From Bacteroidales bacterium (GTDB lineage Bacteria > Bacteroidota > Bacteroidia > Bacteroidales > UBA932): 44,506 nucleotides of DNA. Positions 13,314-27,052 of the stretch are shown piece by piece. The DNA is taken from contig JAFWPA010000031.1 in assembly GCA_017509685.1 (NCBI GenBank), positions 1 through 44,506 on the forward strand, in the 5' to 3' direction. Within the stretch, counting starts at the first letter, position 1, and every line of letters starts with the position of its first letter. Position numbers and translations under genes: made by a program. The notes below the pieces were generated by a model that worked only from the letters and a program-made list of their open reading frames with translations, searched no databases and had not been told where the DNA came from.

Positions 13314-13395
13314 GCGGGTGTGTTGGAATTGGTAGACAACCCAGACTTAGGATCTGGTGCCTTACGGCGTATGGGTTCGAGTCCCTTCACCCGCA
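13314..13395 (+). tRNA. tRNA-Leu (anticodon UAG)
   Basis: The acceptor arms GCGGGTG (13314-13320) and CACCCGC (13388-13394) pair fully, with discriminator A13395. The anticodon stem CCAGA/TCTGG encloses loop CTTAGGA, giving anticodon TAG, which reads CUA and other CUN codons. A class II variable arm (TGCCTTACGGCGT region) and T-loop GGTTCGAGTCC follow. CCA is not encoded, as usual in Bacteroidetes. The 3' end GAGTCCCTTCACCC recurs in reverse complement inside two of the cassette repeats. Confidence 0.95.
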
Positions 13396-13440
13396 CGAAC
13401 TTACGCTATCGCACAGGGCCGACGCTTCGTAAGTCCGCCC

Positions 13441-13500
13441 ACGTTACCCTCTCCCTAAATCCCTCCCCTCGGGGGAGGGACTCGGCGTCAGAAGACGCCG
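13441..13500 (+). repeat. tRNA-associated 60-nt double-palindrome repeat, copy 1
   Basis: Contains CCCTCCCCTCGGGGGAGGG and CGGCGTCAGAAGACGCCG hairpins in tandem. The reverse complement of 44166-44225 matches it at 59 of 60 positions. Both copies lie 3' of a tRNA gene and read in the same direction as that tRNA. Confidence 0.9.
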
Positions 13501-13541
13501 TTCGGCCCGTCCCGGGCCTCATATCACCCGCGCGAAGCAAA

Positions 13542-13570
13542 GCCCCGGCATGCAATTAGGATGTCGGGGC
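13542..13570 (-). terminator. Hairpin terminator after the OxyR-like gene
   Basis: GCCCCGGCAT / ATGTCGGGGC arms (one mismatch) with a 9-nt loop, followed on the minus strand by TTTGCTTC. A 29-nt copy of the same design ends the OhrR operon at 27793-27821. It may also stop tRNA-Leu readthrough from the other side. Confidence 0.75.
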
Positions 13571-13595
13571 CTTTTCTTTTCTATAAACAAGGGAT

Positions 13596-14519
13596 TTATA
13601 GACATAAATATCCTTTCCTTATTACCCCCTCCAGAAGGGTTCCGGGAATGATGCGCCTGACTGCATTCACCACGGCATTCAGTTTTGCCTCGTGAATGTA
13701 ATCGGTGCGGATAACAAGGGAGATGGTCCTGCCTGGCACGGGATCCACGATGGGACGAAGGCAATTCTGCTGGCTGTACAGGATGAAGTTGGAATGCGTC
13801 TCAGGGATGATGGTAATGCCCCCATTCTCGTTGACAACTTGAATAAGGATGCCCACGCGGCCTCCCTCAAAGAATCGGTCGTAAGTGATTTCACCAGATT
13901 TCAGTTCCGACGGATCCAATTGACGAAGACCGTCACGGATAATCCAAACTGGCTGCTCTAGAATGCTTTCCATGCGGATGCTTTCCTGTGCGTATACGGG
14001 ATTATTGGATGCGACATAGGCCAAGAAGCGTTCGTGATAAAGGGGAATCTCCAACAGATCCACATCCCGTACCGGCCCCGCCATTATACCCATATCCACC
14101 TCGGCTTTCCTGAGTTTGTCCTTGATGGTATCAGTGAGCATTTCCTCCGTTTGAAGGGCAATAGAAGGATAATTCTCGCCGAAGTATTTGAAAAAGCCAG
14201 GAATCAGCACCGGCGCCACCGTTGAAATTAGGGCAATCTTCAGTGGCCCGGTCAGCGTTTCTTTTTCTGTGCGGGTCATTTCGGAAATCTGCTCCACATT
14301 ATAAAGAACCACCTTTGCACGGTCAATGACTTTCCGGCCAATCTCGGTGGGCGCCAGTGGATGGGCATCCCTGTCAAAGAGCCGTACGTCCAATTCTTCT
14401 TCCAGTTTCTTGACCATCAGGCTAAGAGTGGACTGAGTTAAGCCGCAAGCCTCGGCCGCTTTCCCGAAGTGCCGATAATCGTCGATGGCGATGATATAGC
14501 GCAGTTGCTGAAGAGTCAT
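13596..14519 (-). CDS. LysR-family regulator, OxyR-like but without the redox cysteine pair
   Basis: A 307-residue LysR-type regulator. I start at ATG 14519 (MTLQQLRYI) rather than the upstream 14546, because a TATCTTTG promoter at 14549-14556 puts the transcript start between them and GGAAAGG precedes 14519. Residues 1-60 are the winged helix-turn-helix (GKAAEACGLTQSTLSLMVKK). The rest is the two-lobed effector domain, most like OxyR (MGIMAGPV, NENGGITIIPETH). In OxyR the peroxide-sensing Cys sits in a GHC-LR motif; here the segment reads RDGLRQLDP with no Cys. It is divergent from trkH, its likely target. A peroxide-sensing role is therefore doubtful. Confidence 0.78.
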   Translation of the reverse strand: MTLQQLRYIIAIDDYRHFGKAAEACGLTQSTLSLMVKKLEEELDVRLFDRDAHPLAPTEIGRKVIDRAKVVLYNVEQISEMTRTEKETLTGPLKIALISTVAPVLIPGFFKYFGENYPSIALQTEEMLTDTIKDKLRKAEVDMGIMAGPVRDVDLLEIPLYHERFLAYVASNNPVYAQESIRMESILEQPVWIIRDGLRQLDPSELKSGEITYDRFFEGGRVGILIQVVNENGGITIIPETHSNFILYSQQNCLRPIVDPVPGRTISLVIRTDYIHEAKLNAVVNAVRRIIPGTLLEGVIRKGYLCL

Positions 14520-14569
14520 AACCTTTCCGTTAATTGATTTTTTCAATGCAAAGATAAAAAATTTTGTAT

Positions 14570-14599
14570 TGATAAATGGATTTTGGCAGAATATCTTTG
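14570..14599 (+). promoter_or_regulatory. Promoter of trkH (TTG, 19 bp, TATCTTTG)
   Basis: TTG at 14570-14572 and TATCTTTG at 14592-14599 are 19 bp apart, the Bacteroidetes primary-sigma arrangement. The transcript would begin near 14605, which excludes the frame's upstream start at 14583 and supports ATG 14619. It lies back-to-back with the OxyR-like gene's -7 box at 14549-14556. Confidence 0.75.
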
Positions 14600-14618
14600 C
14601 CCCGTCAATTCATTATTT

Positions 14619-16067
14619 ATGAACTGGAGGCTCATCACTTGGTATTTCGGCGTCTCGTTGCTCCTGGTAGCAGCGCTAATGACCGTGTCCGGTATCGTGG
14701 CATGCTGTACAACCGGCGATGAAAGCCGCACGCCACTTCTTTTCTCAGCCTACCTTACCGGTACGGTCGGTTTCTTCCCGTTAATCTTTGTACGCAAAAG
14801 TCAATACAGACTCAGTTTCAAAGAAGGAAACTGTATCGTGGTAGGAGCCTGGCTACTTTCCTGTCTGTTTGGGATGCTGCCCTTCCTCTTCTACGGCAGG
14901 GAGTTTACTCCCATCAATGCACTCTTTGAAAGCGTTTCCGGTTTTACTACTACCGGAGCCTCCATCCTGAATGACATCGAGTCTCTTCCGCGCGGCCTGC
15001 AATTGTGGCGCATTTCCACAGCCTGGGTGGGCGGCATAGGCATCGTCACCCTTTTCTCTATGCTCGCCGGGAAGTCCGACAAAACCACTTTGTCCGGGGC
15101 CGAAATTTCCAATGTCGCACGCGAATCTCTGGCCGGGGAAAAGAATGGAAGCTTTGCCAACCGGATGCTCATCACCTATATCGCTTTGACGTTCGTTACA
15201 CTCTTTTCCCTGAAACTCACCGGAATGGGATGGTTCGATGCCGCTACAAACGCCATGTCCGCATGTAGCACCTGCGGTTTTTGCACCCGGAATACAAGCA
15301 TTGCTTTTTATGCCAATCCTGCAGCAGAGACGGTCCTAACCGTCGCCATGCTTGCCGCAGGTGTCCATTTCGGAATCCTTTTCCTGGCTTTCCTTAAGGG
15401 CAGACCCCGTTTCATCTGGAAGTCCGAGACTATCAAGGTTTTCCTCTCCTTGGTAGGCATTGCCATCGTCATCGTCACGACTGATCTTATGCTCAGAGGG
15501 CATTACTCCTCTTTTGCCCAGGCTCTCCGTGACGCCTCCTTCCAGGTGGCATCCATATCAACGACTACAGGCTTTGCTACGCAGGACACCACGCTCTGGC
15601 CCCCGCTCAGTATGTCAGTACTGATCATCTGTTCACTCATCTGCGGTTGTTCCGGCTCCACCTCCGGCGGCATCAAAGTGGACCGGGCCATTCTGGCGGC
15701 AAAGGGAATTTACCGGAAAGTGAAACTGACCGTGGAACCCAACGGAATCTACTTTGTCCGGGTGGACGGCAGGGCACGTTCAGAAGAACAGATAAGCGAT
15801 GCCTATGGCTATATTTTCAGCTACCTCATCCTGATGGTCGTTTTCGCTGCCGTCAACATCGCATTCGGAGAGGACTTTACTACTGGCGTCACTGCTTCCA
15901 TAGCCTGCATCGGCAACGTCGGCCCAGGTTTCGGCGACGTTGGATCCATGTCTAATTATTCAGATTTCCCGGCCATTCTAAAGTTTACCGGAATGATAGA
16001 GATGCTCATCGGACGACTGGAGATATTTCCGGTGCTTTACCTCTTCCGCTCAATCAAGAAAAGTTGA
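14619..16067 (+). CDS. trkH: TrkH-family potassium uptake protein
   Basis: A 482-residue inner-membrane K+ (or Na+/K+) channel-like subunit. Four pore-loop selectivity segments are visible: SVSGFTTTGAS, ACSTCGFCTR, ISTTTGFATQD and GNVGPGFGDVG, each with the pore glycine. About ten to twelve membrane segments surround them, and GCSGSTSGGIK matches the TrkH loop. TrkH normally needs the cytoplasmic RCK protein TrkA; no trkA lies in this window. The start is set by the promoter at 14570-14599. The divergent OxyR-like regulator may control it. Below its stop begins the accessory cassette array. Confidence 0.92.
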   Translation: MNWRLITWYFGVSLLLVAALMTVSGIVACCTTGDESRTPLLFSAYLTGTVGFFPLIFVRKSQYRLSFKEGNCIVVGAWLLSCLFGMLPFLFYGREFTPINALFESVSGFTTTGASILNDIESLPRGLQLWRISTAWVGGIGIVTLFSMLAGKSDKTTLSGAEISNVARESLAGEKNGSFANRMLITYIALTFVTLFSLKLTGMGWFDAATNAMSACSTCGFCTRNTSIAFYANPAAETVLTVAMLAAGVHFGILFLAFLKGRPRFIWKSETIKVFLSLVGIAIVIVTTDLMLRGHYSSFAQALRDASFQVASISTTTGFATQDTTLWPPLSMSVLIICSLICGCSGSTSGGIKVDRAILAAKGIYRKVKLTVEPNGIYFVRVDGRARSEEQISDAYGYIFSYLILMVVFAAVNIAFGEDFTTGVTASIACIGNVGPGFGDVGSMSNYSDFPAILKFTGMIEMLIGRLEIFPVLYLFRSIKKS

Positions 16068-16158
16068 AGCAATCAACTAGTTCCCGGTTCGTTGAAAGAA
16101 CAAACTTCATTTAATCTTGGAAACTCTACCCTGGACACTAATTTATATCCATCTGAAT

Positions 16159-16222
16159 ACCAAATAGATACACAGCTATAAAGTCATCAAAATTGGTTAG
16201 ATAATTGTCCCGTTGCCCGCAC
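16159..16222 (+). repeat. 64-nt cassette repeat, copy A
   Basis: First of six same-length, same-orientation copies. It begins ACCAAATAGATACAC, has AATTGGTTAGATAATTG in the middle and ends GTTGCCCGCAC. It lies 91 nt after trkH. Together with its right flank (to 16278) it is nearly identical to copy B and flank over 120 nt. Confidence 0.93.
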
Positions 16223-16278
16223 GCGAATTCGCCCGGCCCTTGACGGCCGGGCTTTCGCGTGCCAGGGTGAAGGGACTC
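16219..16278 (+). other. GC hairpin plus tRNA-3'-end-like tail after copy A
   Basis: GCACGCGAA...GCCCGGCC pairs with GGCCGGGC...TTCGCGTGC (16219-16262). The tail GGGTGAAGGGACTC (16265-16278) is the exact reverse complement of 14 nt of the tRNA-Leu 3' end at 13379-13392. On the minus strand this reads as a tRNA 3' end followed by a terminator stem. Confidence 0.75.
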
Positions 16279-16285
16279 CGTTTTT

Positions 16286-16381
16286 ACGATCTTAGTCCAA
16301 AAAAAGGGGACAAATCAGATTAAGATCGTCAATAATGACAATCTTAGTTTAAGTCTAGCGCGATTTCAAAACTAAGATCGT
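16286..16381. promoter_or_regulatory. Array of four GATCTTAGT operator-like words with no adjacent plus-strand gene
   Basis: ACGATCTTAGT (16286-16296), TAAGATCGT (16321-16329), AATCTTAGT (16340-16348) and ACTAAGATCGT (16371-16381). The outer pair is a perfect 11-bp inverted repeat. The forward, reverse, forward, reverse order matches the array in front of the Fic gene at 18721-18790. The only gene beside it runs toward it from the right and ends at 16416. Confidence 0.55.
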
Positions 16382-16415
16382 CCGCAGCAGCAAACATGAC
16401 AAGGAGAGACGCCGA

Positions 16416-17264
16416 TTATTGGATTTCAGGGGTGTTTGTACCGGTGTCCAGAGCGGGTTTATCCTTGGCGTTTAGGGAAGAGATTACTGTGCCACCCACA
16501 CGTTTTTCAATGTTTTCACGGGCATCTCCTGCAATGATGCCTCCCTCCTTTGCTATCTGCTTGCTTTCCGAGAAGGTCTCTGGTTGACGAGCCTGGGATA
16601 TGGCCTTGGTGGAGACCTCGGCCAGCATGTTCAGGACCAGTTCTATGTCGGTCATATTGTCCCGGAGGTTTTCCTTCTTCAGACCCTTTAGGTCTTTGTA
16701 TTCCCTGACAGTCAAACCGCTCCAGGCTATGGTCATTTCGTTTGTGAGAATGGCATACTCTTTTTCCTTCTGGATGCCGCGAGCCTTCCATTCATCTGTC
16801 AGTTCTTTCCGCATCCGGATCGATTGAAGGCGCTGGTTGATCCATCCCTCAGAATAACCTTTTGCCCTATAATATTCGGCACCACGAAGTATGGCTAACT
16901 CAGGATCTTGAATCTCATCGATACGCTCGCTGGCGACCTTGGCAATCCACTGTTTGAAGGGTTCGGCCTTGGGAGATGGAATGGACTGGATAAGGCGGAA
17001 AAGTTGCTGCTGATCTGCGACATCGGTCTGGCGCATCTTGCCATCGGCAGCGCGCATTTTGAAAGCGTGACAATTTGTCACGGTTTCATTCCCCTCCTTA
17101 CGCAGCCTCTCTTTTAGCTTCCTCCAATATGCCGCCGCATCAACACTGTCAGTCAATGCTGCACATACATCCACAATCGAGAAATACCATTTCTCCTCTT
17201 CCTGATTCCAGGCTGTCCTGATTCTCTTTTCTCCGAATAACTGGAGCGCTTCTTTATTTCCCAT
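16416..17264 (-). CDS. BRO-N / DinD-like protein
   Basis: A 282-residue protein with the BRO-family N-terminal DNA-binding domain at about residues 8-110 (LFGEKRIRTAWNQEEEKWYF, VDVCAALTDS, YWRKLKERLRKEG). The remainder resembles the DinD/DNA-damage-inducible family (GAEYYRAKGYSEGWINQRLQ, DEWKARGIQKEKEYAILTNE). Such proteins occur in phage antirepressor modules and as stand-alone accessory genes; E. coli DinD inhibits RecA activity. It is the only gene between repeat copies A and B, and it faces against the repeats' direction. A weak -7 box (TATCTTCG) lies at 17283-17290. Function here is unknown. Confidence 0.72.
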   Translation of the reverse strand: MGNKEALQLFGEKRIRTAWNQEEEKWYFSIVDVCAALTDSVDAAAYWRKLKERLRKEGNETVTNCHAFKMRAADGKMRQTDVADQQQLFRLIQSIPSPKAEPFKQWIAKVASERIDEIQDPELAILRGAEYYRAKGYSEGWINQRLQSIRMRKELTDEWKARGIQKEKEYAILTNEMTIAWSGLTVREYKDLKGLKKENLRDNMTDIELVLNMLAEVSTKAISQARQPETFSESKQIAKEGGIIAGDARENIEKRVGGTVISSLNAKDKPALDTGTNTPEIQ

Positions 17265-17368
17265 AACTCACTTCAATTTCTACGAAGATAGCCATTCTTT
17301 ACTGTAGAAGCAAGAATTATAATCCGCATTCCTTCTTAATATTTTTAAAAAACACCAATCGTCTGTAT

Positions 17369-17432
17369 ACCAAATAGATACACCATATTAAAGTCCTCAA
17401 AAATGGTTAGAATTTTGTTAACAACCCCGCAC
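17369..17432 (+). repeat. 64-nt cassette repeat, copy B
   Basis: Same 64-nt length and orientation as copy A. It carries the variant 3' part TTTTGTTAACAACCCCGCAC, shared in essence with copy F. It lies 104 nt beyond the start of the minus-strand BRO-N gene. Confidence 0.93.
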
Positions 17433-17488
17433 GCGAATTCGCCCGGCCTTCGACGGCCGGGCTTTCGCGTGCTAGGGTGAAGGGACTC
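17429..17488 (+). other. GC hairpin plus tRNA-3'-end-like tail after copy B
   Basis: Same hairpin and tail as after copy A, with three differences over the 56 nt beyond the 64-nt unit. Copies A and B thus bound a 1,210-bp unit with 120-nt direct repeats. Confidence 0.75.
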
Positions 17489-17637
17489 ACTTCGTTCAAC
17501 CCCCGCTGCTTCGCAGCTGCCCCCAGGGGCCATTGAAGGGGCTGCGCCCCCTCAAACACCCCCAAGTCGGCCTTCCAGGCCTCCGAAGTCCCTCCGCTGG
17601 TTTTGCCTCGTCGACACGGCAAATTAGAAATTATTAG

Positions 17638-17645
17638 TATCTTTG
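17638..17645 (+). promoter_or_regulatory. -7 box TATCTTTG for the lipoprotein gene
   Basis: Perfect TAnnTTTG element 25 nt before the ATG at 17671. It shows that this cassette gene carries its own promoter. Confidence 0.6.
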
Positions 17646-17670
17646 TGCATAATGTTGAGGTTTGCCATTT

Positions 17671-18600
17671 ATGAAAAGAATTATCCTGATTTCAATGTTA
17701 TTCCTTTCAATGACCGCATGCATCATCATGCCATCGAAAAAAACGGCGGAGTATAAGGATATTTCCTTCTATTATATTCCCAACGTGAATATTGGGATAG
17801 GCGTCTATTCCAATGATACTCAGCAGACCGTTCGTGTTTTTCATAAGTCCGAACAAGTTACGGAGCGCCATGAAGGGATTCCGGAAAGCAGCGACAAACA
17901 ATCTACGGGCATCTCTTTCAGAATAGATTCCAGTATGGTTCTTTCTTTAACGGACTACTATCGTTTCCCCAAAGTATATCTGCTTTCAGGTTATAGCGAG
18001 GCCTCAAAAATCAGAGTTAATCCGCAGTATGGCTATGTAGTTTTAGCGAAGAGCATGCAGTCTTACCCTGAAGGGGTTCGTTATGTAAACGTTTCATTAC
18101 CTGTCAGAAATGACCGGTTGGAATACTCTGACATCGACGGAATAAAGTACGAAATTCTTCCACTCCCGATAGACACACTCAAGCTTCGTCTGGCCAGTAC
18201 TCAGGGCACTCGTTCTTATGCAAAACCTGGCGATTTCCACTACCTTCCCGAACTTTTCGACAACGCCGACCCCGAAGCAGACCTGGATTCACAGTTAACC
18301 CTTTATCCTGATAATCGTTGTTTCGACTATAGAGGAACCACAGTTAAGACTAGCCCCAATCTACATTCAGAAGGATGGTTCTATAGCCAAGGCTTTTATA
18401 TTAATCCGAAGGTTCCCAACTATATATTCACCAGTCCATTCGATTATTTCAGCTTCACTGGCGATGTTCGCATCGTCATTTCTGATATCGTCGGAATGGT
18501 AGTGGAATACGAAAGCAGACCTGATCGCATACGACATCCGAGAGAACCTTGGGTCTGGATAGATTGGAAGGATAAAAAGACACTTTACTTCCGTCAATAA
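17671..18600 (+). CDS. Hypothetical lipoprotein
   Basis: A 309-residue protein of no family I recognise. I choose ATG 17671 (the frame extends to a TTG at 17662) because it gives a clean signal, MKRIILISMLFLSMTAC, with a lipobox Cys at 17. The rest is soluble, moderately rich in Tyr, Ser and Asp, with beta-strand-like alternation, and has no internal repeats or catalytic motif that I can name. It is AT-richer than the core genes around it. It lies between repeats B and C, has its own promoter, and repeat C starts 30 nt after the stop. Confidence 0.8.
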   Translation: MKRIILISMLFLSMTACIIMPSKKTAEYKDISFYYIPNVNIGIGVYSNDTQQTVRVFHKSEQVTERHEGIPESSDKQSTGISFRIDSSMVLSLTDYYRFPKVYLLSGYSEASKIRVNPQYGYVVLAKSMQSYPEGVRYVNVSLPVRNDRLEYSDIDGIKYEILPLPIDTLKLRLASTQGTRSYAKPGDFHYLPELFDNADPEADLDSQLTLYPDNRCFDYRGTTVKTSPNLHSEGWFYSQGFYINPKVPNYIFTSPFDYFSFTGDVRIVISDIVGMVVEYESRPDRIRHPREPWVWIDWKDKKTLYFRQ

Positions 18601-18630
18601 TCAATGCGCATAGCCGTTATTTAATTGAAC

Positions 18631-18694
18631 ACCAAATAGATACACGGCCCTAAAATCGTCAAAATTGGTTAGATATTTGTCCCGTTGCCCGCAC
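18631..18694 (+). repeat. 64-nt cassette repeat, copy C
   Basis: ACCAAATAGATACAC...TTGGTTAG...GTTGCCCGCAC, 30 nt after the lipoprotein stop codon. It is followed directly by a terminator. Confidence 0.93.
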
Positions 18695-18724
18695 AAGCCG
18701 GCCTTTTCGAGGGCCGGTTTTTTT
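18695..18724 (+). terminator. Terminator directly after repeat C
   Basis: CCGGCC / GGCCGG stem with a short loop, then seven T. The T-run merges with the first operator word of the Fic promoter. Confidence 0.8.
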
Positions 18725-18790
18725 GACAGAAATTTTGCAACCTGTCAAAATTTTGCTATTTTTGACAGTTGAAAAGAAAACTGTCAAAAA
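18720..18790 (+). promoter_or_regulatory. Fic promoter covered by four TTTTGACAG operator words
   Basis: The promoter is TTTTG (18733-18737), 19 bp, TATTTTTG (18757-18764). Around it lie TTTTGACAG (18721-18729), CTGTCAAAA (18742-18750), TTTTTGACAGT (18759-18769) and ACTGTCAAAAA (18780-18790). The last two form a perfect 11-bp inverted repeat overlapping the -7 box and the start codon. The transcript would begin near 18770, so ATG 18790, not TTG 18769, is the start. Confidence 0.75.
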
Positions 18791-19899
18791 TGGAAGCATA
18801 CGATAGATATACTCCCTTCAATCAACTTCCGCCCCTTCCACCTGACCAGGCGCTGTACATGGATGCGGAAGTGGGAACAAAACTGGTGCAAGCGAGCAGG
18901 CGTCTGGCCGAATTGAAAGGCCTTGCAGCCACGCTCCCCAACCAGACCATCTTCGTAAATACCATTGCCCTGCGGGAAGCGAAAGCCAGTAGTGCCATTG
19001 AGAATATTTTCACCACGGACGATGAACTCTATCGTAGTTTATCCTACCAGGAAGACGACTACCTGGAAGGACCGGCCAAAGAGATTCTGCATTACAGGGA
19101 AGCACTCTGGAAAGGTTTTCAGAACATAACCAAAGAGAAAAACCTCAGTGTTGAAACAGTGGTGGACGTCTTTCGTCAAGTAAAAAAGACGCACGAAGGG
19201 ATTCGTCCCTACCAGGCAGAAATTGTAATCAAAAAAAGAGGCTGGGGGTCTTTGGTTGCGGAAACCATCTATACTCCTCCAAGAGGGAAAGGAATAGTAG
19301 AAAAAAAGATGGCCGACTGGATTGACTTTCTGAACGACGATTCCGCCTACCCCGTTGATCCGCTCCTAAAAATGGCAATGGCTCACTATCAGTTTGAAGC
19401 TATCCATCCATTCAGGGACGGCAACGGCAGGACAGGCAGAATCCTATGCATTATCTATTTGATCCAAAAGGGGCTTCTGGACCTGCCCATCCTATACCTT
19501 AGCGCCTATATCCTCCAGAACAAAGATGCATACTACTACGCCCTCAACAGCGTGACGGGACTCAGGGACTGGAAGGCGTGGATTCTTTATATGCTCGAAG
19601 CCGTTTCACAAACATCGGAATATACTATTGATAAGATAAACCGTATCCGTTCTTTGATGGAAAAGACGGAAAGAATCATCTTGGAGAACAAACTCTCCCT
19701 GGCCAGACTCAACCTTTCCAAGCTGTTCGAACAGCCCTACATCCGTCCCAAGAATCTGCTCTCGAGTACAATTAAGAGCGTAAATACGGCCAAGAAGTAC
19801 CTCAGTCAGCTGGAGGGCCTGGGCCTTCTCACAAAAGAGCGAATCGGCAAGGAGTATATCTGGTTCAACACCGAGCTGATGGCTATTTTGTCAGATTAA
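18790..19899 (+). CDS. Fic-family AMP-transferase, class II, with C-terminal winged helix
   Basis: A 369-residue Fic protein that would transfer AMP from ATP to a hydroxyl on a target protein. The full core motif HPFRDGNGRTGR is at residues 206-217 (catalytic His206, Asp210, both Arg). The N-terminal helix carries SSAIEN (about residues 67-72), the (S/T)xxxE(G/N) inhibitory motif whose Glu blocks ATP gamma-phosphate binding, so it is self-inhibited (class II). The C-terminal 80 residues look like a winged helix (TIKSVNTAKKYLSQLEGLGL) that could bind the operator words in its own promoter. The gene is a single unit between repeats C and D. Target protein unknown. Confidence 0.9.
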   Translation: MEAYDRYTPFNQLPPLPPDQALYMDAEVGTKLVQASRRLAELKGLAATLPNQTIFVNTIALREAKASSAIENIFTTDDELYRSLSYQEDDYLEGPAKEILHYREALWKGFQNITKEKNLSVETVVDVFRQVKKTHEGIRPYQAEIVIKKRGWGSLVAETIYTPPRGKGIVEKKMADWIDFLNDDSAYPVDPLLKMAMAHYQFEAIHPFRDGNGRTGRILCIIYLIQKGLLDLPILYLSAYILQNKDAYYYALNSVTGLRDWKAWILYMLEAVSQTSEYTIDKINRIRSLMEKTERIILENKLSLARLNLSKLFEQPYIRPKNLLSSTIKSVNTAKKYLSQLEGLGLLTKERIGKEYIWFNTELMAILSD

Positions 19900-19913
19900 T
19901 GATTAACCTGCAA

Positions 19914-19977
19914 TCCCAACAAATACACAGCCCTCAGCTCTTCAAAAATGGTTCGATAATTGTCTCATTGCCCGCAC
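19914..19977 (+). repeat. 64-nt cassette repeat, copy D
   Basis: The most divergent copy in its left half (CCAACAAATACACAG) but with the conserved ATGGTTCGATAATTG and ATTGCCCGCAC. It begins 14 nt after the Fic stop codon. Confidence 0.88.
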
Positions 19978-20007
19978 AAGGCCGCTTCGGAAAGAGGCGG
20001 TACTTTT
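19978..20007. terminator. Terminator between repeat D and the membrane-protein gene
   Basis: CCGCTT / AGGCGG stem (19982-20000, with one G-T pair), then TACTTTTTT. It sits directly after the repeat and at the stop of the minus-strand gene, so it may act in the plus direction for the Fic transcript. Confidence 0.65.
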
Positions 20008-20727
20008 TTATCGGCTCCAGCCTTCCAGACAATAAATTTTGCTCGTAAGTAATCGCCTTTCGGAAGAACCTTTAGGAGTGAATATCAAATCTATTCTCAC
20101 AGCATAGGGCTCTCCCCAACTGCCATCATACAAGGTGGCTTTAGATGATGCCACCTCCCCAAATGCAGTATGTCCTGAGATAGGATAAATAATGGGTTTA
20201 TGATTGACATAAAAATCCAATTTGTAATTGGACGTAATCTCATATGACTCCAGAGCAATTTCACCATCTGGCAATTGAGGTGCTGACAATCGGTAATAAT
20301 AGACACCAGGTTGTCCTTCTTTATCCTCAAGCAGAATCCAAGTAGTGGAATCTGACGGATTGGCGGGGAACCCCTTCTCCTTAGGAAGTGAATACTCCAA
20401 CCCTTCAGGGATAGGATGCCTTGCCCCAAAATGGTCATGCATTCCCGAAGTATATATAGAAAAGAAGCTAAAAAGTAAGAAGATAATGACAGAAAAGACA
20501 GTTGCAGCTAATGAACGCCAGAAAAGTTTTCGCTCCTTCATTATCAAAACAACGAAGGGCAGAATGAGTATTAGCATCAACGACAGTCCAAATAGTATAT
20601 AAATTATATTAGGGAACCAATATTCCTGAAAAGGGTTGCCGTTGAGATAGACTATAATAATCAAGAAACAAAAGTAGGCTATATAGAAAGCCTTCCAATA
20701 CCTGAACGTATTCTCTTTGATTCTCAT
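20008..20727 (-). CDS. Hypothetical membrane protein with C-terminal extracytoplasmic domain
   Basis: A 239-residue protein if started at ATG 20727 (MRIKENTFRYW); the frame continues to 20778 but a TACATTTG -7 box at 20733-20740 on the minus strand puts the transcript start between. That leaves a leader of only a few bases. Three hydrophobic helices are visible (about residues 15-31, 39-62 and 71-92), then a soluble domain from 95 on, with no motif that I recognise. It is AT-rich. It is divergent from the DUF6169-like gene; both lie between repeats D and E. Confidence 0.75.
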   Translation of the reverse strand: MRIKENTFRYWKAFYIAYFCFLIIIVYLNGNPFQEYWFPNIIYILFGLSLMLILILPFVVLIMKERKLFWRSLAATVFSVIIFLLFSFFSIYTSGMHDHFGARHPIPEGLEYSLPKEKGFPANPSDSTTWILLEDKEGQPGVYYYRLSAPQLPDGEIALESYEITSNYKLDFYVNHKPIIYPISGHTAFGEVASSKATLYDGSWGEPYAVRIDLIFTPKGSSERRLLTSKIYCLEGWSR

Positions 20728-20735
20728 GAGTGCAA

Positions 20736-21245
20736 ATGTACTCTTTATTTTTGAACGGAAAACCAACGACATCTCCAAATTGTTGCAATTTTTCTATTAT
20801 TCGTATTCGGGCATGGGAATCCAACGGTCAGTATTACTTCGACACCCCATCAGGGGCGCGATACGTCGCGTACTTTTTGGATTTGTCTTCGTTCGCAGAG
20901 AACCTATACACTTTCAACTTCGATAGAATCCAGGACGGTGCCCCCAATAATGCAGACAGCAACGTTTTTGACACCATTTGCGCTATCCTGCAGGGGTTCT
21001 TTGTAAAGCATCAGAATTCAATGCTGCTAGTATGCGACACAATAGATGGAAGAGAAGAAGCCAGAATGAGACTATTCAATTCATGGTTTATTAGGATAGT
21101 TCCGGAAGGACTAACCAAGATTGACAGAAGCGGCAAAGCAGAAGCATACAACCTGTTTGTCTCACTCCTTGTCTGGGCCGATAATCCAATGCGCGACGCC
21201 CTAGTCTCTATCCTTGAAGAATACTGTCAAACTATGCTTCAATAA
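20736..21245 (+). CDS. DUF6169-like protein (start uncertain)
   Basis: Up to 169 residues from ATG 20736. The pattern matches small bacteroidal DUF6169 proteins: QYYFDTPSGARYVAYF, then DTICAILQGFF, LLVCDTIDGREEARMRLFNSWF and SLLVWADNP. Function of the family is unknown. The start is problematic. A plus-strand -7 box TATTTTTG at 20746-20753 lies inside the frame, and no ATG/GTG/TTG follows it in this frame. The neighbouring frame reads LLQFFYYSYS just before, so a one-base slip near 20812-20815 (a GGG run) may have split the true N-terminus, either in nature or in the assembly. Stop is 7 nt before repeat E. Confidence 0.65.
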   Translation: MYSLFLNGKPTTSPNCCNFSIIRIRAWESNGQYYFDTPSGARYVAYFLDLSSFAENLYTFNFDRIQDGAPNNADSNVFDTICAILQGFFVKHQNSMLLVCDTIDGREEARMRLFNSWFIRIVPEGLTKIDRSGKAEAYNLFVSLLVWADNPMRDALVSILEEYCQTMLQ

Positions 21246-21252
21246 GCCGTAA

Positions 21253-21316
21253 ACCAAACAGATACAGCACCATAAAATCCTCAAAAATGGTTCGATAATT
21301 GTCCCATTGCCCGCAC
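21253..21316 (+). repeat. 64-nt cassette repeat, copy E
   Basis: ACCAAACAGATACAG...ATGGTTCGATAATTG...ATTGCCCGCAC. It starts 7 nt after the preceding stop codon. A weak stem (TCTTC/GAAGA, 21333-21350) followed by TGTTATTTTC comes after it. Confidence 0.93.
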
Positions 21317-21374
21317 GATATCTTTCCGCAGGCATCTTCCCTTTAGAAGACGCTGTTATTTTCTTAAAAATTAG

Positions 21375-21382
21375 TACTTTTG
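21375..21382 (+). promoter_or_regulatory. -7 box TACTTTTG upstream of the GH5 remnant
   Basis: TAnnTTTG element 41 nt before the ATG at 21424. It could still drive the remnant and the large lipoprotein gene behind it. Confidence 0.5.
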
Positions 21383-21423
21383 CACTGCTATCACGGAGTA
21401 ATAATTGTCAATTGTAAATCACT

Positions 21424-21657
21424 ATGAATAAAAACACCCTTTCCGCCTTCGTAGCAGTCGTTCTAGCCATCCTGCTCACTGCATCCTGTTCTTCCGGCAG
21501 TTCCTGGGTCAAAGTGCAGGGAAACAAGTTCATCGGCCCGGACGGGAAAGAACTGGTTTTTCGCGGACTTTGTTTCTCGGACCCGGTCAAACTGGTGCGC
21601 GGCATCTGCTCCTCCTTCACCGAACCCGTTCCCGGCCGCCTTCTGGCAAAGATATAG
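21424..21657 (+). pseudogene. N-terminal remnant of a GH5-type glycoside hydrolase lipoprotein
   Basis: A 77-residue frame. It has a lipoprotein signal (LLTASCSSGSS) and then FIGPDGKELVFRGLCFSDP, followed by KLVR. This is the standard opening of cellulase-family GH5 enzymes (the first strand of the barrel with the RG motif). The match stops after KLVR, and a short unrelated tail (GICSSFTEPV...) ends the frame. The catalytic barrel of about 300 residues is missing. The next gene starts 34 nt later. It is not a fragment of the GH5 gene at 25787, whose opening differs (GAGWNLGNTLD). Confidence 0.72.
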
Positions 21658-21691
21658 CTACAAAATAGTAAAATTAAATCAATACTAGAAT

Positions 21692-24076
21692 ATGAGACTT
21701 GGCCGAATTATCATCATAGCAGGTTTATTGCTGGCGCTGGCCGCCTGCAAACACGAGAATCCTGTTTATGTCACCGTCAATGAAGAGTTTGATGTCGTTA
21801 TAGACAACACAACGGAGTCTGTAAAGATGGTTATCGAAGGGGGCTTCAACCCCCATATCAGGCAGGTGGTTTCCAATGCCGACTGGCTTCAAGTCCGTTA
21901 TTCCGGAACCATCAAACTGGATGAGTTCAAAGACCCTGATACGGGCTTCTACTGGCTCAGCGGAGGGGAATACCCCCAGTTCGAACTCTCCTATACAACC
22001 TATGATTATCTGGATGAGTATGACGAGAGGGATACGGATGTGATAATCACGACCGAATCCGGCAACACACTGACACTTCACGTAACCCAGGGCGACCGGA
22101 GCCTGGAGTCTGACGAAGAAAAACCCAACTACTGCTTCGTGCCCACCGGACAGGGCGTCTTCCTGGTGCTGAACACCGGAGGCGGTATGGGCGGTCCCAG
22201 GTTGAGCGATATCAAGTCTGTCAATACGGACTTTGAAGCCGACTGGACCCAGGAAGAGGCCATCTACCTGTTCGACGGGAAAGGCCCTGAGGTAGTGAAC
22301 GGCATCAAGGGATATACTATCGTACCGCTTCCATGGGCCGACATCAACGAATCCCATCTTCCGGACGGGGAGGCCAAGAAAATGCTGAAGAACGGCCAGT
22401 GGAAGCTGGTGCTAAACTACACTGGCAACCGCTCCCTCCCGAATTTCAACTACTTCGCAATGTATAATCCTTATGTGGGCAAGCTACGTTTCTTCTATTA
22501 CCTGGCAGGCGATGCCAATATGAAGGATATCAACGACCATCTGTGGGCCGTCACCGTTCCCAGCGAGTGGGCGGCCGCTTTGGAACGCCCCTACGCCCTG
22601 GCTTATGACTTCACCGACCACGGCAAACTCAGCAATTACCGCAACAGCCGCTTCACGTACCTGACAACGCCTTATACGGACGACGGACGCTTCGGCACTT
22701 CCGGCAACATCATTCCGGAGAGCGGCTGGTGGGCCATAGACATAGATATCCCCTCCATGGCCCAGTTTGACCGGACCGCAATCGCCAAGAAAGATATCAG
22801 CCTCAGGATGCTCACCTTCAACAAGGACCACGTTTCGCTCCAATCCCTTGTCAAGGCCGACATCAACGGCTCTTTCAACGGGAATCTGAATCTGGATGCC
22901 CTCTGGAAGAAGCCTCGTTCCGTCAGCAGTCTGGGCACCGTACTTTCCACCATCACCGGCCTGGGATCCGACTTGACTGCCGACGATAATTTCAGCGCTT
23001 ACTTTCTGGATGCTATGGACAAGGCCAAGACGGCCGATCCCTATGCCCTGGGCCTGGCTGTGGCCAGCATCGGTTTTAAAGCCATCTCAGGCGTAATAAC
23101 GGGATTGGACGAGGAGGAGGAGCCCGACATCTCGAAGACCGGACAGATGGAAGGGACCATCAAACTGGACCTCAAAGGGACCATCGACACGGAAGGCTTC
23201 ATAAGGGGAGACCGTCAGTCCGGTCTCAAATTCCCGACGTTTACCGTGGACAAATTGGCAAAGGATGCCGGCATAGGAGAAGGCATTTGGAATTTGGAAA
23301 CCGCCCCCGTTGCTTATTATACCGCTGCCTGCCTTTATTTTGAAAAAGAAGAAGACCGGGAACACTATCTGGGCAACAGTGCCTCTTCCGGGGCCGTGGA
23401 CTACTTCTTCGATCCCTCTTCGGTGCGTATCAAGCTGAATGAGAGACTTTTCCCGGCTAACCAGATTCACTCCATGTCCATCAGGATGACGCCCGAAATT
23501 CCCGTGAAGGAGGCCAAAGCCTCATGGCCTTCCAGAGAGGCGATGGGCATTCCGTTGAAGGCGCCCAGGGTGGATTACATGGCAAGGAAGAGGAAAATCT
23601 ATAACCTCGAGAACGACGGTTATCCCGGAATGCCCCTTCCGCAGGAAATGATTCCGAAAATCAGCAGGCTGGGCTATGTCAACAAGGCCCTGATGTTCTA
23701 TACCAAAACGGAAGAGGAAGACCCGTTCAACCCGGATATGAACCTGTGCGGCCTGGGTGTCCCGAAACAGTTCCTGTCCTGGCCGTTCTGGCTGGATTAT
23801 TCCCTGCCGTCCGACAAGGAAATGTACCTTCCGGAGTTGTCCGTAATCCTGAACCTCTATATTCAGTTGAAGGACGGAACCCGGTGCACCTATACCAGAA
23901 CCTATCCGGTCCGGTTCCAGTATGTAGAATCCTTCGACGAGTACAATAATTTGCTTCGGGGCGCTGTTGACCGGTTGGGAAAGGTTCCTTACGCGAAATT
24001 CCTTCACCAGAACGACCAGACGGCCGAGAAGATGGTTCAGCGGGAAATAGGATTGCGGTACTATTGGGAATATTAA
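21692..24076 (+). CDS. Large hypothetical lipoprotein with a BACON-like N-terminal domain
   Basis: A 794-residue predicted lipoprotein (MRLGRIIIIAGLLLALAAC, lipobox LAAC). Residues about 25-130 look like a BACON-type beta-sandwich: paired Val/Ile strands, SNADWLQVRYSG, and the closing LTLHVTQGDR. BACON domains are found in Bacteroidetes surface enzymes and are thought to bind carbohydrate or mucin. The remaining 650 residues contain no enzyme motif that I recognise. They are rich in Tyr, Asp and Lys and contain an acidic stretch (GLDEEEEPD). It lies in the longest repeat-bounded unit (E to F). It has no clear promoter of its own apart from that before the GH5 remnant. Confidence 0.75.
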   Translation: MRLGRIIIIAGLLLALAACKHENPVYVTVNEEFDVVIDNTTESVKMVIEGGFNPHIRQVVSNADWLQVRYSGTIKLDEFKDPDTGFYWLSGGEYPQFELSYTTYDYLDEYDERDTDVIITTESGNTLTLHVTQGDRSLESDEEKPNYCFVPTGQGVFLVLNTGGGMGGPRLSDIKSVNTDFEADWTQEEAIYLFDGKGPEVVNGIKGYTIVPLPWADINESHLPDGEAKKMLKNGQWKLVLNYTGNRSLPNFNYFAMYNPYVGKLRFFYYLAGDANMKDINDHLWAVTVPSEWAAALERPYALAYDFTDHGKLSNYRNSRFTYLTTPYTDDGRFGTSGNIIPESGWWAIDIDIPSMAQFDRTAIAKKDISLRMLTFNKDHVSLQSLVKADINGSFNGNLNLDALWKKPRSVSSLGTVLSTITGLGSDLTADDNFSAYFLDAMDKAKTADPYALGLAVASIGFKAISGVITGLDEEEEPDISKTGQMEGTIKLDLKGTIDTEGFIRGDRQSGLKFPTFTVDKLAKDAGIGEGIWNLETAPVAYYTAACLYFEKEEDREHYLGNSASSGAVDYFFDPSSVRIKLNERLFPANQIHSMSIRMTPEIPVKEAKASWPSREAMGIPLKAPRVDYMARKRKIYNLENDGYPGMPLPQEMIPKISRLGYVNKALMFYTKTEEEDPFNPDMNLCGLGVPKQFLSWPFWLDYSLPSDKEMYLPELSVILNLYIQLKDGTRCTYTRTYPVRFQYVESFDEYNNLLRGAVDRLGKVPYAKFLHQNDQTAEKMVQREIGLRYYWEY

Positions 24077-24154
24077 ACAAAAACCGCCCACCGGATTTAG
24101 GGTGAGCAAAGAACGTTGTAGAGAGATTCTGGACAAGACAAAAGAATTACAGCT
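24077..24154. other. Short spacer with a possible 24-codon leader frame
   Basis: A GTG at 24102 opens a 24-codon frame (VSKERCREILDKTKELQLW...) that overlaps the next gene's start in another frame and stops at 24176. It may be a coupled leader or the remnant of a lost partner gene; there is too little to decide. Confidence 0.3.
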
Positions 24155-24454
24155 ATGGATAAAAGACAGGTTATAAAAATCGTCAAACGGTACAAGGAGG
24201 CAGTAACTGCCAAGTTTGGGCCGGTTACTGTCTATTTGTTCGGATCCTATAGCAAGGGTAACGCCCGGGAGGACAGTGATATTGACGTTGCAGTTATTGT
24301 CCCGGAAGTTCAAGGAGATTTCTTGAAAGAGTCTGCAAAACTGTGGCGTATCACTTTGGAGGTAAATACCTTGATTGAACCCATTCTTATTGAGTCTTCG
24401 CATCCGTCTCCACTATATGAAGATATTCTTCACACCGGAATCATGGTTGCATAG
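24155..24454 (+). CDS. MNT-type minimal nucleotidyltransferase
   Basis: A 99-residue protein of the DNA polymerase beta-like nucleotidyltransferase superfamily. VYLFGSYSKG (residues 27-36) and EDSDIDVAV (about 40-48) form the GS...DxD active site. Family members of this size (MntA) often act as antitoxins that adenylylate a neighbouring HEPN RNase toxin (HepT). No HEPN gene is present; only a 24-codon frame precedes it. It may therefore be an orphan antitoxin or act on another partner. Repeat F begins 16 nt after its stop codon. Confidence 0.82.
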   Translation: MDKRQVIKIVKRYKEAVTAKFGPVTVYLFGSYSKGNAREDSDIDVAVIVPEVQGDFLKESAKLWRITLEVNTLIEPILIESSHPSPLYEDILHTGIMVA

Positions 24455-24470
24455 TCACATCTATTTGTAA

Positions 24471-24534
24471 GCCAAATGAATAGACCGCCATAAGGTCTTC
24501 ATAATTGGTTAGAAATTTGTTAACAACCCCGCAC
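24471..24534 (+). repeat. 64-nt cassette repeat, copy F
   Basis: GCCAAATGAATAGAC...TTGGTTAGAAATTTG, then GTTAACAACCCCGCAC. It shares the GTTAACAAC variant with copy B. It is followed at once by the operator words of the second Fic gene. Confidence 0.92.
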
Positions 24535-24535
24535 T

Positions 24536-24594
24536 TTTGAGCGACATTTTTGAGCGACATGGCTTGGAAGTGTCGCTCTAAGTTTGTAGTTTTG
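24536..24594 (+). promoter_or_regulatory. Second Fic promoter with GAGCGACA operator words
   Basis: The promoter is TTG (24564-24566), 20 bp, TAGTTTTG (24587-24594). TTTTGAGCGACAT occurs twice in direct repeat (24535-24547 and 24548-24560), and TGTCGCTC (24571-24578) is the inverse. GAGCGACA (24552-24559) and TGTCGCTC flank the -33 box symmetrically with 11 nt between. ATG 24614 follows. Confidence 0.65.
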
Positions 24595-24613
24595 CAGGGA
24601 ATAAGATAGTATT

Positions 24614-25615
24614 ATGGACGATCATCAGTATATCAACCAGCAGGAACCGGAGAAAAGCAGGAGATACGTCAACTGGCAGGCGGCAAAGGGACTGCAGGAC
24701 GTAGATGGGCTTAAGACTTCTGACTATCTGGACAAGGTTGCGGCAGACAACATTGAGGGTAAAATATCGGCCTATGAGGCCAAGGACCTTATTGATACCT
24801 ACTACGATGCCAAGGAGGACAGGGAGAAGGATTCTTTGTACGAGGAGGCCGACAAGGTAGCTTCCATGATAAACATCCTTATCGGCGAAATAGGCTTTTC
24901 ACTATCGTCTGAAGAACTGAAATCCATTCACAAACGCCTGTTTGAAGGGGTATTTGAGCATGCCGGGACATACAGAAAAAACAACATCCTCAAGCACGAA
25001 TGGGTTCTTGACGGCGATACTGTCACTTACGGCAACGCATACAATCTTGAAGACAGCGTTGAGAACTTGCTCCGTGGAGAAAGACTCACGCCGTTTAGGA
25101 GTCTTGACGAAAAAGAGACCGTATGGCACATCTCAAAGTTTGTCTCCGAACTCTGGAGAATACATCCGTTTGCAGAAGGCAATACCAGAACCACGGCTGT
25201 ATTTGCAATAAAGTACTTACGGATGTTGGGCTTCGACGTGGACAATTCCATCTTTGAAGCACATTCTCGCTTTTTTAGAGATGCCCTCGTCAGAGCCAAT
25301 TATGCCAATATAAGAAAAGGCATATACGAAGACAGGGATCCGCTGGATGACTTCTTTTCAGACCTTATGATTGGAACGAGGCATGAGTTCCATAGCCGAT
25401 ATCTGCACATATATGCCGATAAAGCCAAACTAGAGACCAAAGATATTGACACCAGCATAATGGAAATGGTCAAAATGGATCGGCATGTAACCCGACAGAA
25501 GATAGCCGATACCCTTGGCGTCAGCGTCAAAACCGTTGAACGTCACATCAAGAATCTACCGATTCACTTCTCCGGCCCGGCAAAGACCGGAGAGTGGGTG
25601 TGTGTGGAACAGTAG
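24614..25615 (+). CDS. Fic-family protein with variant core motif and C-terminal helix-turn-helix
   Basis: A 333-residue Fic-domain protein. The core reads HPFAEGNTRTTA (residues 184-195): His184, Glu188, Asn190 and Arg192 are present, but the second Gly is Thr191 and the final Arg of the canonical GNGRxxR is Ala195. The EGNTRT form is common among bacteroidal Fic proteins. No (S/T)xxxE(G/N) inhibitory motif is visible. Residues about 40-64 (NIEGKISAYEAKDLIDTYY) recall VbhA-type antitoxin helices, a weak match. Residues about 290-318 (TRQKIADTLGVSVKTVERHI) are a helix-turn-helix, suitable for the operator words upstream. It follows repeat F and has no 64-nt repeat after it. Confidence 0.85.
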   Translation: MDDHQYINQQEPEKSRRYVNWQAAKGLQDVDGLKTSDYLDKVAADNIEGKISAYEAKDLIDTYYDAKEDREKDSLYEEADKVASMINILIGEIGFSLSSEELKSIHKRLFEGVFEHAGTYRKNNILKHEWVLDGDTVTYGNAYNLEDSVENLLRGERLTPFRSLDEKETVWHISKFVSELWRIHPFAEGNTRTTAVFAIKYLRMLGFDVDNSIFEAHSRFFRDALVRANYANIRKGIYEDRDPLDDFFSDLMIGTRHEFHSRYLHIYADKAKLETKDIDTSIMEMVKMDRHVTRQKIADTLGVSVKTVERHIKNLPIHFSGPAKTGEWVCVEQ

Positions 25616-25650
25616 CGTTTTCGTTAAGTGACTAATATTCGGCAGTTTAT

Positions 25651-25688
25651 GCATTTTACTCCCAGCAAAACCTCCTGGAGTAAAATGC
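25651..25688. repeat. 12-bp perfect inverted repeat after the second Fic gene
   Basis: GCATTTTACTCC (25651-25662) and GGAGTAAAATGC (25677-25688) with a 14-nt loop. Flanking words TAAGTGACTAAT and TAAGTGATTTAT form a direct repeat outside. There is no T-run. It lies where a seventh 64-nt repeat would be expected and may mark the right edge of the array. Confidence 0.55.
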
Positions 25689-25755
25689 GTAAGTGATTTA
25701 TTATCAATGAATTACGATTTACGGGTCACTTGAGGGAAATTCAAACTTTTATTTG

Positions 25756-25763
25756 TAGATTTG
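25756..25763 (+). promoter_or_regulatory. -7 box TAGATTTG for the GH5 gene
   Basis: TAnnTTTG element 23 nt before ATG 25787. It rules out the frame's earlier start at 25730. Confidence 0.55.
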
Positions 25764-25786
25764 TACTATCCTTCACGGAAGGGGTA

Positions 25787-27052
25787 ATGAAAAAAGCCAT
25801 CATACTGTGCATTTTTGCCGCGCTTGCATTCGGGTGCAGGCCGATGGATGCCCCCGCCCCGCCGCAGGAGAAGCCACAGGACAAACAGGACGAGTCCGGT
25901 AGGCCCGATGAACCAGACAAGCCTGATACACCGGACGCCACGGACCCCTTTGAAAGCGCCGCGGAAGCAGTCCTCAACATGGGCGCCGGCTGGAACCTTG
26001 GCAACACCTTGGATTCAAACAGCGGAGACACCAACAATATGTGGATAGAGGCCTGGACCTCCCGCACACCAAAGGATTACGAAACCTCCTGGGGGCAGCC
26101 GGAGACCACCCGAGAACTTATCCATATGTTCAAGGAAGCCGGTTTTGGGGTAATCCGCGTGCCCGTAACCTGGTACCCCCATATGGGCACAATCACACTC
26201 CACGGCCAGAACAAATGGAATCCCGCCACCTGGATGGGTACAACTGTGGACCCAGTGTGGATGGCCCGCGTGAAGGAAGTTGTGGACTATGTGATTGACG
26301 AAGGGATGTACTGCATCCTCAACGTCCACCACGACACAGGATCCGCCTCCACGGCGTGGATAAGTGCTTCAGAAGCAGGTTTCAACGCCGCAAAGGACCG
26401 CTACAAGGTTCTGTGGCAGCAGATTGCCATCACATTCAAGGACTATGGGGAGAAACTCCTCTTTGAGTCCTACAACGAGATGCTGGACCAGTACGACTCC
26501 TGGTGTTTTGCCTCATTCGCGGCCCCCGGAAACTATGACGCCGCCGTGGCCCAGGGTGCCTACAAGGCCATATACAACTACGCAGCACTGTTCACACAGA
26601 CAGTGCGTGCAACCGGCGGCAACAACCTCTACAGGAACCTTGTGGTGAACACTTACGGCGCCTGCAGCGGCGACGGCACCTGGAACTCCCACCTCAAGGA
26701 CCCCATATCCAGCATCCAGATTCCGGAAGAACCCGGCCACATAGCCATAGAGGTGCACAGTTACTGGGATGCCGGGAAATTTGCGGCGCAGAAGGCCGAT
26801 ATCGACCGCCTGTTCACAAACCTTGACACATATATTGTAAAACGTCTTGGGGTACCCGTAATCATTGGCGAATGGGGCGGCGGGACCAATGACGACAATG
26901 ACGCCAACGTCACCTTTGCCGGATATTTCTCCGGAAAAGCCAGGGAGGCCGGAATTGCCGCCTGCTGGTGGATGGGCCTTTCCGACGGAAGTGACCGCAT
27001 CGTCCCCGCCTGGGCAATGCCAAGGACCAAGGACGCCATCCTTCAAAAATAA
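25787..27052 (+). CDS. GH5-family endo-glycanase (cellulase-type) lipoprotein
   Basis: A 421-residue secreted glycoside hydrolase, probably cleaving beta-1,4 glucans or related plant polysaccharides. ATG 25787 gives a lipoprotein signal (Cys17 in LAFGC) followed by a Pro/Asp/Glu linker to residue 55. The barrel begins with GAGWNLGNTLD (66-76). The HH pair in LNVHHD (178-183), the acid/base Glu231 (ESYNE) and the nucleophile Glu362 (IIGEWGG) are in the GH5 order. EVHSYW (322-327) supplies the His-Tyr that contacts the nucleophile. It has its own promoter, is intact, and lies 4 kb from a GH5 remnant of a different subtype. Confidence 0.92.
   Translation: MKKAIILCIFAALAFGCRPMDAPAPPQEKPQDKQDESGRPDEPDKPDTPDATDPFESAAEAVLNMGAGWNLGNTLDSNSGDTNNMWIEAWTSRTPKDYETSWGQPETTRELIHMFKEAGFGVIRVPVTWYPHMGTITLHGQNKWNPATWMGTTVDPVWMARVKEVVDYVIDEGMYCILNVHHDTGSASTAWISASEAGFNAAKDRYKVLWQQIAITFKDYGEKLLFESYNEMLDQYDSWCFASFAAPGNYDAAVAQGAYKAIYNYAALFTQTVRATGGNNLYRNLVVNTYGACSGDGTWNSHLKDPISSIQIPEEPGHIAIEVHSYWDAGKFAAQKADIDRLFTNLDTYIVKRLGVPVIIGEWGGGTNDDNDANVTFAGYFSGKAREAGIAACWWMGLSDGSDRIVPAWAMPRTKDAILQK

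Follow-up and report, generated by a model that had tools for sequence, protein, structure and literature searches.

Small gene cassettes arrayed behind a tRNA-Leu(UAG) gene in a Bacteroidales genus: probable tandem accretion at the tRNA 3' end

What kind of system sets unrelated small genes between copies of one direct repeat is the question raised by contig JAFWPA010000031.1 of a Bacteroidales bacterium (assembly GCA_017509685.1, lineage UBA932), the whole analysed stretch of which, 44,506 nt long, is called the window below. An earlier interpretation made from the letters alone (the sequence-only reading) described six repeats dividing an accessory region into gene cassettes, and took them for a cassette system with the layout of an integron array. 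One part of this interpretation stands: within one Bacteroidales genus, units bounded by the repeats are gained and lost as wholes and recur in other species. The integron layout does not, as the repeats are displaced 3' ends of a tRNA-Leu gene with a conserved arm, attC boxes and attC folding are absent, and no IntI reached the cut-off in any of 12 draft genomes. We consider it quite probable that the locus arose by tandem accretion at tRNA-Leu(UAG) of small integrase-less cassettes with attR-type sites, probably served by an integrase acting in trans.

The six copies lie in a single orientation and align without gaps, as had been claimed; the 64-nt copies described earlier are the last 64 nt of 69-nt spans (16154-16222, 17364-17432, 18626-18694, 19909-19977, 21248-21316, and 24466-24534, copies A to F). 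The other five copies are 62-80% identical to the reference copy, and the core pattern GGTTMGAWWWTTGTNNNNNNNCCCGCAC has six matches in the window with at most three mismatches, compared to 0.02 expected. Copies C to F start 30, 14, 7, and 16 nt past the stop codons at 18600, 19899, 21245, and 24454, respectively, in agreement with the sequence-only reading. Nor are copies scattered over the genome: all six exact matches in the window's own genome, which is 79% complete, fall inside the array.

Each window copy ends with CCCGCAC, the 3' end of tRNA-Leu(UAG), and a gene for this tRNA, its end reading GGGTTCGAGTCCCTTCACCCGCAC, lies upstream of the array. The sequence-only reading contained neither this gene nor the segment following it; given the position of the tRNA and the displaced tails, the segment with LysR and TrkH genes between the tRNA and site A is the first unit (Table 1). 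The last unit, after 24534, has no closing site within the window, and in its relatives the closing site has a shortened arm. A search of positions 15500-27800 with Rfam gave no match above the gathering score and one below it, the tRNA-Leu gene lying outside that stretch. A phage or plasmid origin was considered and rejected, since viral contigs contain no exact match to the core pattern, and phage or plasmid records, no match to the 69-nt copy at E 0.01.

Exact matches to the core pattern in genome contigs were found in 62 stretches from Bacteroidales or Bacteroidia metagenome-assembled genomes, many of them from rumen or reticulum samples, the lone outlier being one Myxococcales match taken as chance. 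Within the family, only four of 299 genomes have exact matches, all belonging to the window's genus (62 genomes), and none was found in the 237 genomes of 24 other genera. When up to two mismatches are allowed, 136 matches are observed in 84 of 400 same-genus genomes (the window's own included), compared to four for the reversed pattern. In all, 141 site rows lie in 88 pieces of sequence, or 133 without the eight rows from overlapping pieces L245-L247. A tRNA-Leu gene is present in the same piece for 83 rows (50 pieces, none of them from the overlapping set), and in all 83 the site lies downstream of the tRNA on the same strand, its end 491-11,647 nt past that of the tRNA; the tRNA is of the UAG type for 80 of these same-genus rows and of the GAG type for three (pieces L158 and L194). 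Two further pieces, L141 and L136, have the tRNA 11 and 14 kb upstream of their sites, respectively. Moreover, site orientation is uniform in all 29 contigs with at least two sites (32 pieces counting overlaps).

Comparison of site tails with the tRNA of the same piece was possible for 72 of the 83 rows, those with a readable strict core. The last seven letters agree at 0.92-0.97 per position, dropping to 0.22 at the eighth; all seven agree in 55 of the 72 sites, and one further mismatch results from a tRNA end called one base long. The tail also follows the host: in genomes where the tRNA ends with CCCGTAC, the site has CCCGTAC in four cases out of four, compared to one of 43 other genomes (Fisher p 3e-5; neither this nor any other association test below is corrected for kinship). 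At this position, -3, sites agree with their own tRNA at 0.97 and with tRNAs of other genomes at 0.83. The repeats are therefore displaced tails of the tRNA gene. This host match bears on another possibility, namely that the genes are shuffled by general homologous recombination of the 64-nt repeats alone and that the tRNA link is incidental to a single founding island. In its favour are the single orientation of the direct repeats and the lack of a linked recombinase outside one piece (L128), but the repeats are short and, at the identities given above for the window, diverged, their tails track the host tRNA base, and the L158 and L194 arrays lie behind tRNA-Leu(GAG); we regard this explanation as improbable.

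Re-assortment of neighboring units at the site was assessed for 100 of 104 distinct sites, those with both flanks available. All 16 multi-member clusters of left flanks pair with more than one right-flank cluster, and the same in reverse is seen for 12 of 13 multi-member right-flank clusters, the latter figure being weaker because right clusters can rest on common terminator-like sequence. In total, the 100 sites have 50 left-flank clusters. The site model was built on 74 of 75 distinct sites, with the Myxococcales match (L054) left out as chance. Where two sites have nothing but the left flank in common (92 pairs), identity remains above background for most of the core and reaches background at position 28; where the right flank alone is common (25 pairs), it climbs at that position (two of the initial 27 pairs, in which one site was counted twice, were removed, and the picture is unchanged). 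Core positions 17, 19, and 20 track the left unit. From these profiles, the exchange is most simply placed in positions 21-27, CCCGCAC, so that the crossover would occur within the 7-nt tRNA tail. Complete units, that is, those with a site at each end, number 41 and span 765-6641 nt, with a median of 1820 nt.

Under the proposed mechanism, the repeat copies would be attR-type attachment sites, and each unit, a small integrative cassette for the 3' end of tRNA-Leu(UAG). A site would consist of an arm of about 50 nt (ACCAAATAGATACAC...TCNTCAAAAWTGGTTMGATAATTGT plus 7 variable nt), staying with the left unit, and then CCCGCAC; these last tRNA nucleotides would be the likely 7-nt overlap for strand exchange, with the next unit beginning directly after them. 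An incoming unit would insert after the tRNA itself or after one of the tail copies already present, with the tail rebuilt on one side and a displaced copy left on the other. If two direct copies recombined, the unit or units between them would be set free as a circle, and it is as circles that we infer the units to circulate.

The position of the exchange also bears on the chromosomal integron, or integron-like array with attC sites, which we consider scarcely credible. The layout is that of an integron, and 14 of 104 sites have GTTRRRY in their core; but it is accompanied by an upstream RYYYAAC in only two of the 104 and in none of the six window copies, and the exchange is most simply placed inside the tRNA tail. 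Folding of five of the six copies is at the level of shuffled sequence, and copy F (24466-24534) is the sole window copy that exceeds most shuffles (z -2.1). The IntI model TIGR02249 scores over its cut-off in none of the 12 genomes, which are incomplete drafts. Treatment of the sites as G^TT crossovers of the attC type was dropped once the tRNA tail had been recognised.

The order of units varies between relatives, in line with what the sequence-only reading expected of a cassette system. For example, the 2.9 kb upstream of the tRNA that can be aligned between the window and genome G546 are 70% identical (one 1.2-kb stretch reaches 81%), while the LysR-TrkH unit (window 13538-16223) is 97.9% identical and the Fic unit, 96.3%. 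In G546 these two units meet at one site, and in the window the BRO and lipoprotein units lie between them. More generally, units common to two species are 77-98% identical, the backbone being mostly 67-78% identical. Unit identity exceeds that of the backbone by at least five points in 22 of 24 genome pairs, and one more pair has a smaller excess; the comparison required at least 600 nt of unit and 300 nt of backbone in common and favours conserved units. Units appear to move between species. The unit with the SoFic-type Fic gene is found in other genomes at about 86-97% identity. A search for TrkH in 121 genomes gave 26 with a match, 25 of them at 66-79% identity, and this result was not used. 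Sequence directly behind the tRNA is patchy: in G546, the first ~170 nt past the tRNA resemble the sequence after window site B, and the next ~100 nt resemble window 27078-27176 (a 94% copy shortly behind tRNA-Leu). The boundary is therefore not always clean, and leaders are mosaic.

Two sets of observations weigh against accretion driven in trans, concerning the sites and the recombinase. As for the sites, no tRNA-Leu is seen over 18 kb upstream in L135, or over 14-16 kb for the two L157 sites; for the remaining rows without tRNA-Leu, less than 8 kb of upstream sequence is at hand. Except for position -3, sites match the tRNA tails of other genomes nearly as well as their own, because the tail hardly varies. 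One core type (TTAACAAC) has little beyond the last 7 nt in common with the tRNA. Within the core, identity at positions 14-16 and 18 is elevated with either neighbor, and only 17, 19, and 20 are linked to the left one. Some sites have shortened arms, similarity to their relatives stopping at about -25 to +10 of the core, and in one of the 24 genome pairs the backbone is more alike than the unit by five points. Shortened-arm sites were recorded in L065 (2443), L061 (6558), L070 (2317), L128 (9205), and L157 (about 12880, reverse strand); the one in L128 adjoins what seems, by eye, to be a truncated start of a PIN-type gene. Short common letters at some breakpoints may point to illegitimate deletions.

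As for the recombinase, none was in view of the sequence-only reading, and an HMM (hidden Markov model) scan of frames of at least 150 aa likewise finds no tyrosine recombinase in the window; none of the 41 complete units has one either, serine recombinases not being searched in both cases. Among 101 fetched pieces, the HMM search detects a tyrosine recombinase in L128 only, between the tRNA and a Fic unit. In ten site-bearing genomes, the only group of PF00589 recombinases present in all ten is a loose one holding XerD (49 of 52 matches were examined, and short fragments link clusters; in one search, three of 23 matches, for which no locus had been fetched, were left out of clustering). F2, a 308-aa XerC/D-like protein of G510, was tried as a helper and rejected: it occurs in 22 of 84 genomes with sites and in 80 of 316 without (p 0.89), with p 0.04 among genomes with at least two sites. 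Another family, F1 (L089 type), is associated with sites (26 of 84 vs 53 of 316, p 0.005), and its 58%-identity subset, picked after viewing the table, more strongly (p 1e-4); a distant relative (31%) lies 131 nt behind tRNA-Leu in L261. Yet at the ten F1 loci examined no site or tRNA is seen in the available flanks, and three copies have other ends, and F1 is therefore not claimed as the helper. XerC/D may move the units. An F1-type integrase gene block (L089:573-2093 of G000 contig C42, L091, and L308) is 97-98% identical in three species, with a different left flank and following gene in each, an arrangement suggestive of one more small integrative element, carrying a single cargo gene.

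A recombinase-associated interbacterial defence (rAID) cluster would be another way to explain small genes and intergenic motifs in Bacteroidales, features present in the excerpted description of such clusters (PMC12247911). No tyrosine recombinase adjoins the array in the window, and only one of 101 array pieces (L128) has one; window genes lie on mixed strands, and the cargo consists of Fic, BRO, MNT, and toxin-antitoxin (TA) genes. We thus see hardly any chance that the locus is of this kind.

The same tRNA end is used by other elements. Among 40 loci behind tRNA-Leu(UAG), two (G107 and G171) have 67%-identical integrases by a displaced tail about 6.5 kb downstream. Hence the tRNA end serves integrase-bearing elements as well, but with another arm, and these two (L277 and L267) are probably autonomous elements with the same attachment site. 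A XerD-like gene is found 2-14 kb downstream of tRNA-Leu(UAG) in L266, L267, and L268, from three genomes.

Such elements may indicate decayed accretion, in which the units would be remnants, of the type of cis-mobilizable elements (CIMEs), of formerly autonomous tRNA-Leu elements whose integrases were lost; deletion, and ordinary homologous recombination following DNA exchange, would now reshape the arrays in place of a dedicated system. This is in accord with the absence of integrases in or near arrays except L128, with shortened arms and fused units, with the integrase-bearing elements at the same tRNA, and with CIME arrays described in the part of PMC5704250 available. On the other side, units of 0.8-6.6 kb with differing flanks retain one common arm, units are about 97% identical in species with a backbone of about 70% identity, and re-assortment is sharp at the site. 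We hold decay to be rather unlikely, though by no means negligible. Returning to tandem accretion, it is inferred that a tyrosine integrase acting in trans moves the units. More specifically, and tentatively, with confidence somewhat short of even, we suggest a dedicated system of a rumen-associated genus, where cassettes with a common arm, roughly half carrying TA genes or candidate defence genes, would be shuffled at the tRNA-Leu(UAG) 3' end by a host or helper integrase that is unlinked and acts in trans. If so, the tRNA gene would fill the role that attI and IntI have in an integron.

Coordinates of the window features are collected in Table 1.

Table 1. Features of the array and its upstream flank in the window.
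Feature	Coordinates	Strand	Basis
prmA-like methyltransferase, chromosomal flank upstream of tRNA	11224..12066	+	Pfam PF06325
tRNA-Leu(UAG), proposed primary attachment site (attB)	13314..13396	+	ARAGORN, sequence; 3' end ...GTCCCTTCACCCGCAC
First unit, tRNA to site A	13397..16222	+	LysR and TrkH, Pfam
LysR regulator	13596..14546	-	Pfam
TrkH	14583..16067	+	Pfam
Site A (attR-like: arm and tRNA 3' tail)	16159..16222	+	
BRO-N protein	16416..17264	-	Pfam; PADLOC PDC-S13
Site B	17369..17432	+	
Putative lipoprotein, unit B-C	17662..18600	+	No Pfam match; label from the sequence-only reading
Site C	18631..18694	+	
Fic protein (Fic_N, Fic, SoFic C-terminal domain)	18769..19899	+	Pfam, PADLOC
Site D	19914..19977	+	
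Putative membrane protein	20008..20778	-	No Pfam match; label from the sequence-only reading
DUF6169 protein	20730..21245	+	Pfam
Site E	21253..21316	+	
794-aa protein, unit E-F	21692..24076	+	No Pfam match
MNT-type nucleotidyltransferase	24155..24454	+	Pfam; PADLOC PDC-S09
Site F	24471..24534	+	
Fic protein with HTH	24614..25615	+	Pfam; PADLOC PDC-S72
GH5 protein, last unit	25730..27052	+	Pfam

Relatives of the prmA-like gene precede the array in nine further loci. Many units open with terminator-like hairpins and, after them, a recurring GAAGGGACTC motif (window 16223-16280 and 17433-17490 are examples), and the same arrangement is seen behind the tRNA. A pair of 42-nt repeats, 86% alike, lies behind the last unit (window 27086-27178).

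Pfam bears out the earlier assignments of BRO-N, both Fic proteins, DUF6169, and the nucleotidyltransferase, and two genes of the repeat-divided region, those of the BRO and membrane proteins, do face backwards. The window cargo thus includes BRO-N (PDC-S13), Fic (SoFic), MNT (PDC-S09), Fic-HTH (PDC-S72), DUF6169, GH5, and TrkH, where PDC stands for phage defence candidate. Units elsewhere carry MNT-HTH with HepT-like HEPN, Phd, YoeB, AbiEii-like, and RhuM (PDC-S05) proteins. By annotation, a TA- or defence-type family is present in 20 of the 41 complete units, the remaining families being mostly unannotated. TA and candidate defence cargo may be retained because it stabilises the units or defends against phages.

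Confirmation of an integrase acting in trans would mean that uncultured gut Bacteroidales have a simple route for capturing defence genes, and the 64-nt sites would then serve to find arrays of this kind in metagenomes. We had the impression that many contigs end near a site, so that short-read assemblies may miss parts of arrays. Among the matches listed for the open-licence literature, no paper on such arrays in the window's genus was found, which is weak evidence of absence.

Several known systems resemble these arrays. As in the excerpted account of the Dehalococcoides ssrA islands (PMC3146451), units stand in tandem behind one RNA gene, there the tmRNA gene, and each ends in a direct repeat of the RNA 3' end; the conserved 15-bp motif just upstream of the Dehalococcoides repeats may be compared with the arm. 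In the same excerpt, an integration module that includes a serine recombinase is present in sixteen islands, and islands without the module are suggested to be cis-mobilizable. Unlike those islands as described there, the units studied here have a median length of 1.8 kb, none of the 41 carries a tyrosine recombinase (serine recombinases, as said above, were not searched), and half have TA- or defence-type genes.

CIMEs, as presented in the portion of PMC5704250 available, lack integrase and transfer genes, keep att sites, and are described as decayed integrative and conjugative elements or integrative and mobilizable elements (IMEs). The units, in which transfer genes were not searched, resemble them in having no tyrosine integrase, retaining att-like sites, and standing in tandem at the end of the target gene; they differ from CIMEs as described in that units with different genes have one arm and high identity across species. 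A table in that portion also lists two IMEs, NBU1 and MTnPi4, which have a tyrosine integrase and sit where a tRNA-Leu gene ends (3'), and the arrays share with these the phylum Bacteroidetes and the tRNA-Leu 3' end, but not the integrase. The rAID clusters, in the excerpt of PMC12247911, likewise are Bacteroidales arrays with intergenic motifs, where a tyrosine recombinase adjoins co-oriented immunity genes; genes and strands set the arrays studied here apart, the rAID motif itself being uncompared.

With integrons, the arrays share small units, co-oriented repeats ending each unit, and a fixed anchor. Integron cassettes carry TA and defence cargo, to which the TA- and defence-type families of the units correspond. 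The differences are that the tRNA tail replaces attI, attC features are absent, and no IntI scores over the cut-off. It is usual to keep tRNA-targeted islands apart from integron cassette arrays, and here units of integron-cassette size that lack an integrase stack behind a tRNA gene. The array of small integrase-less cassettes with a common arm is a variant on tRNA-targeted islands and CIMEs.

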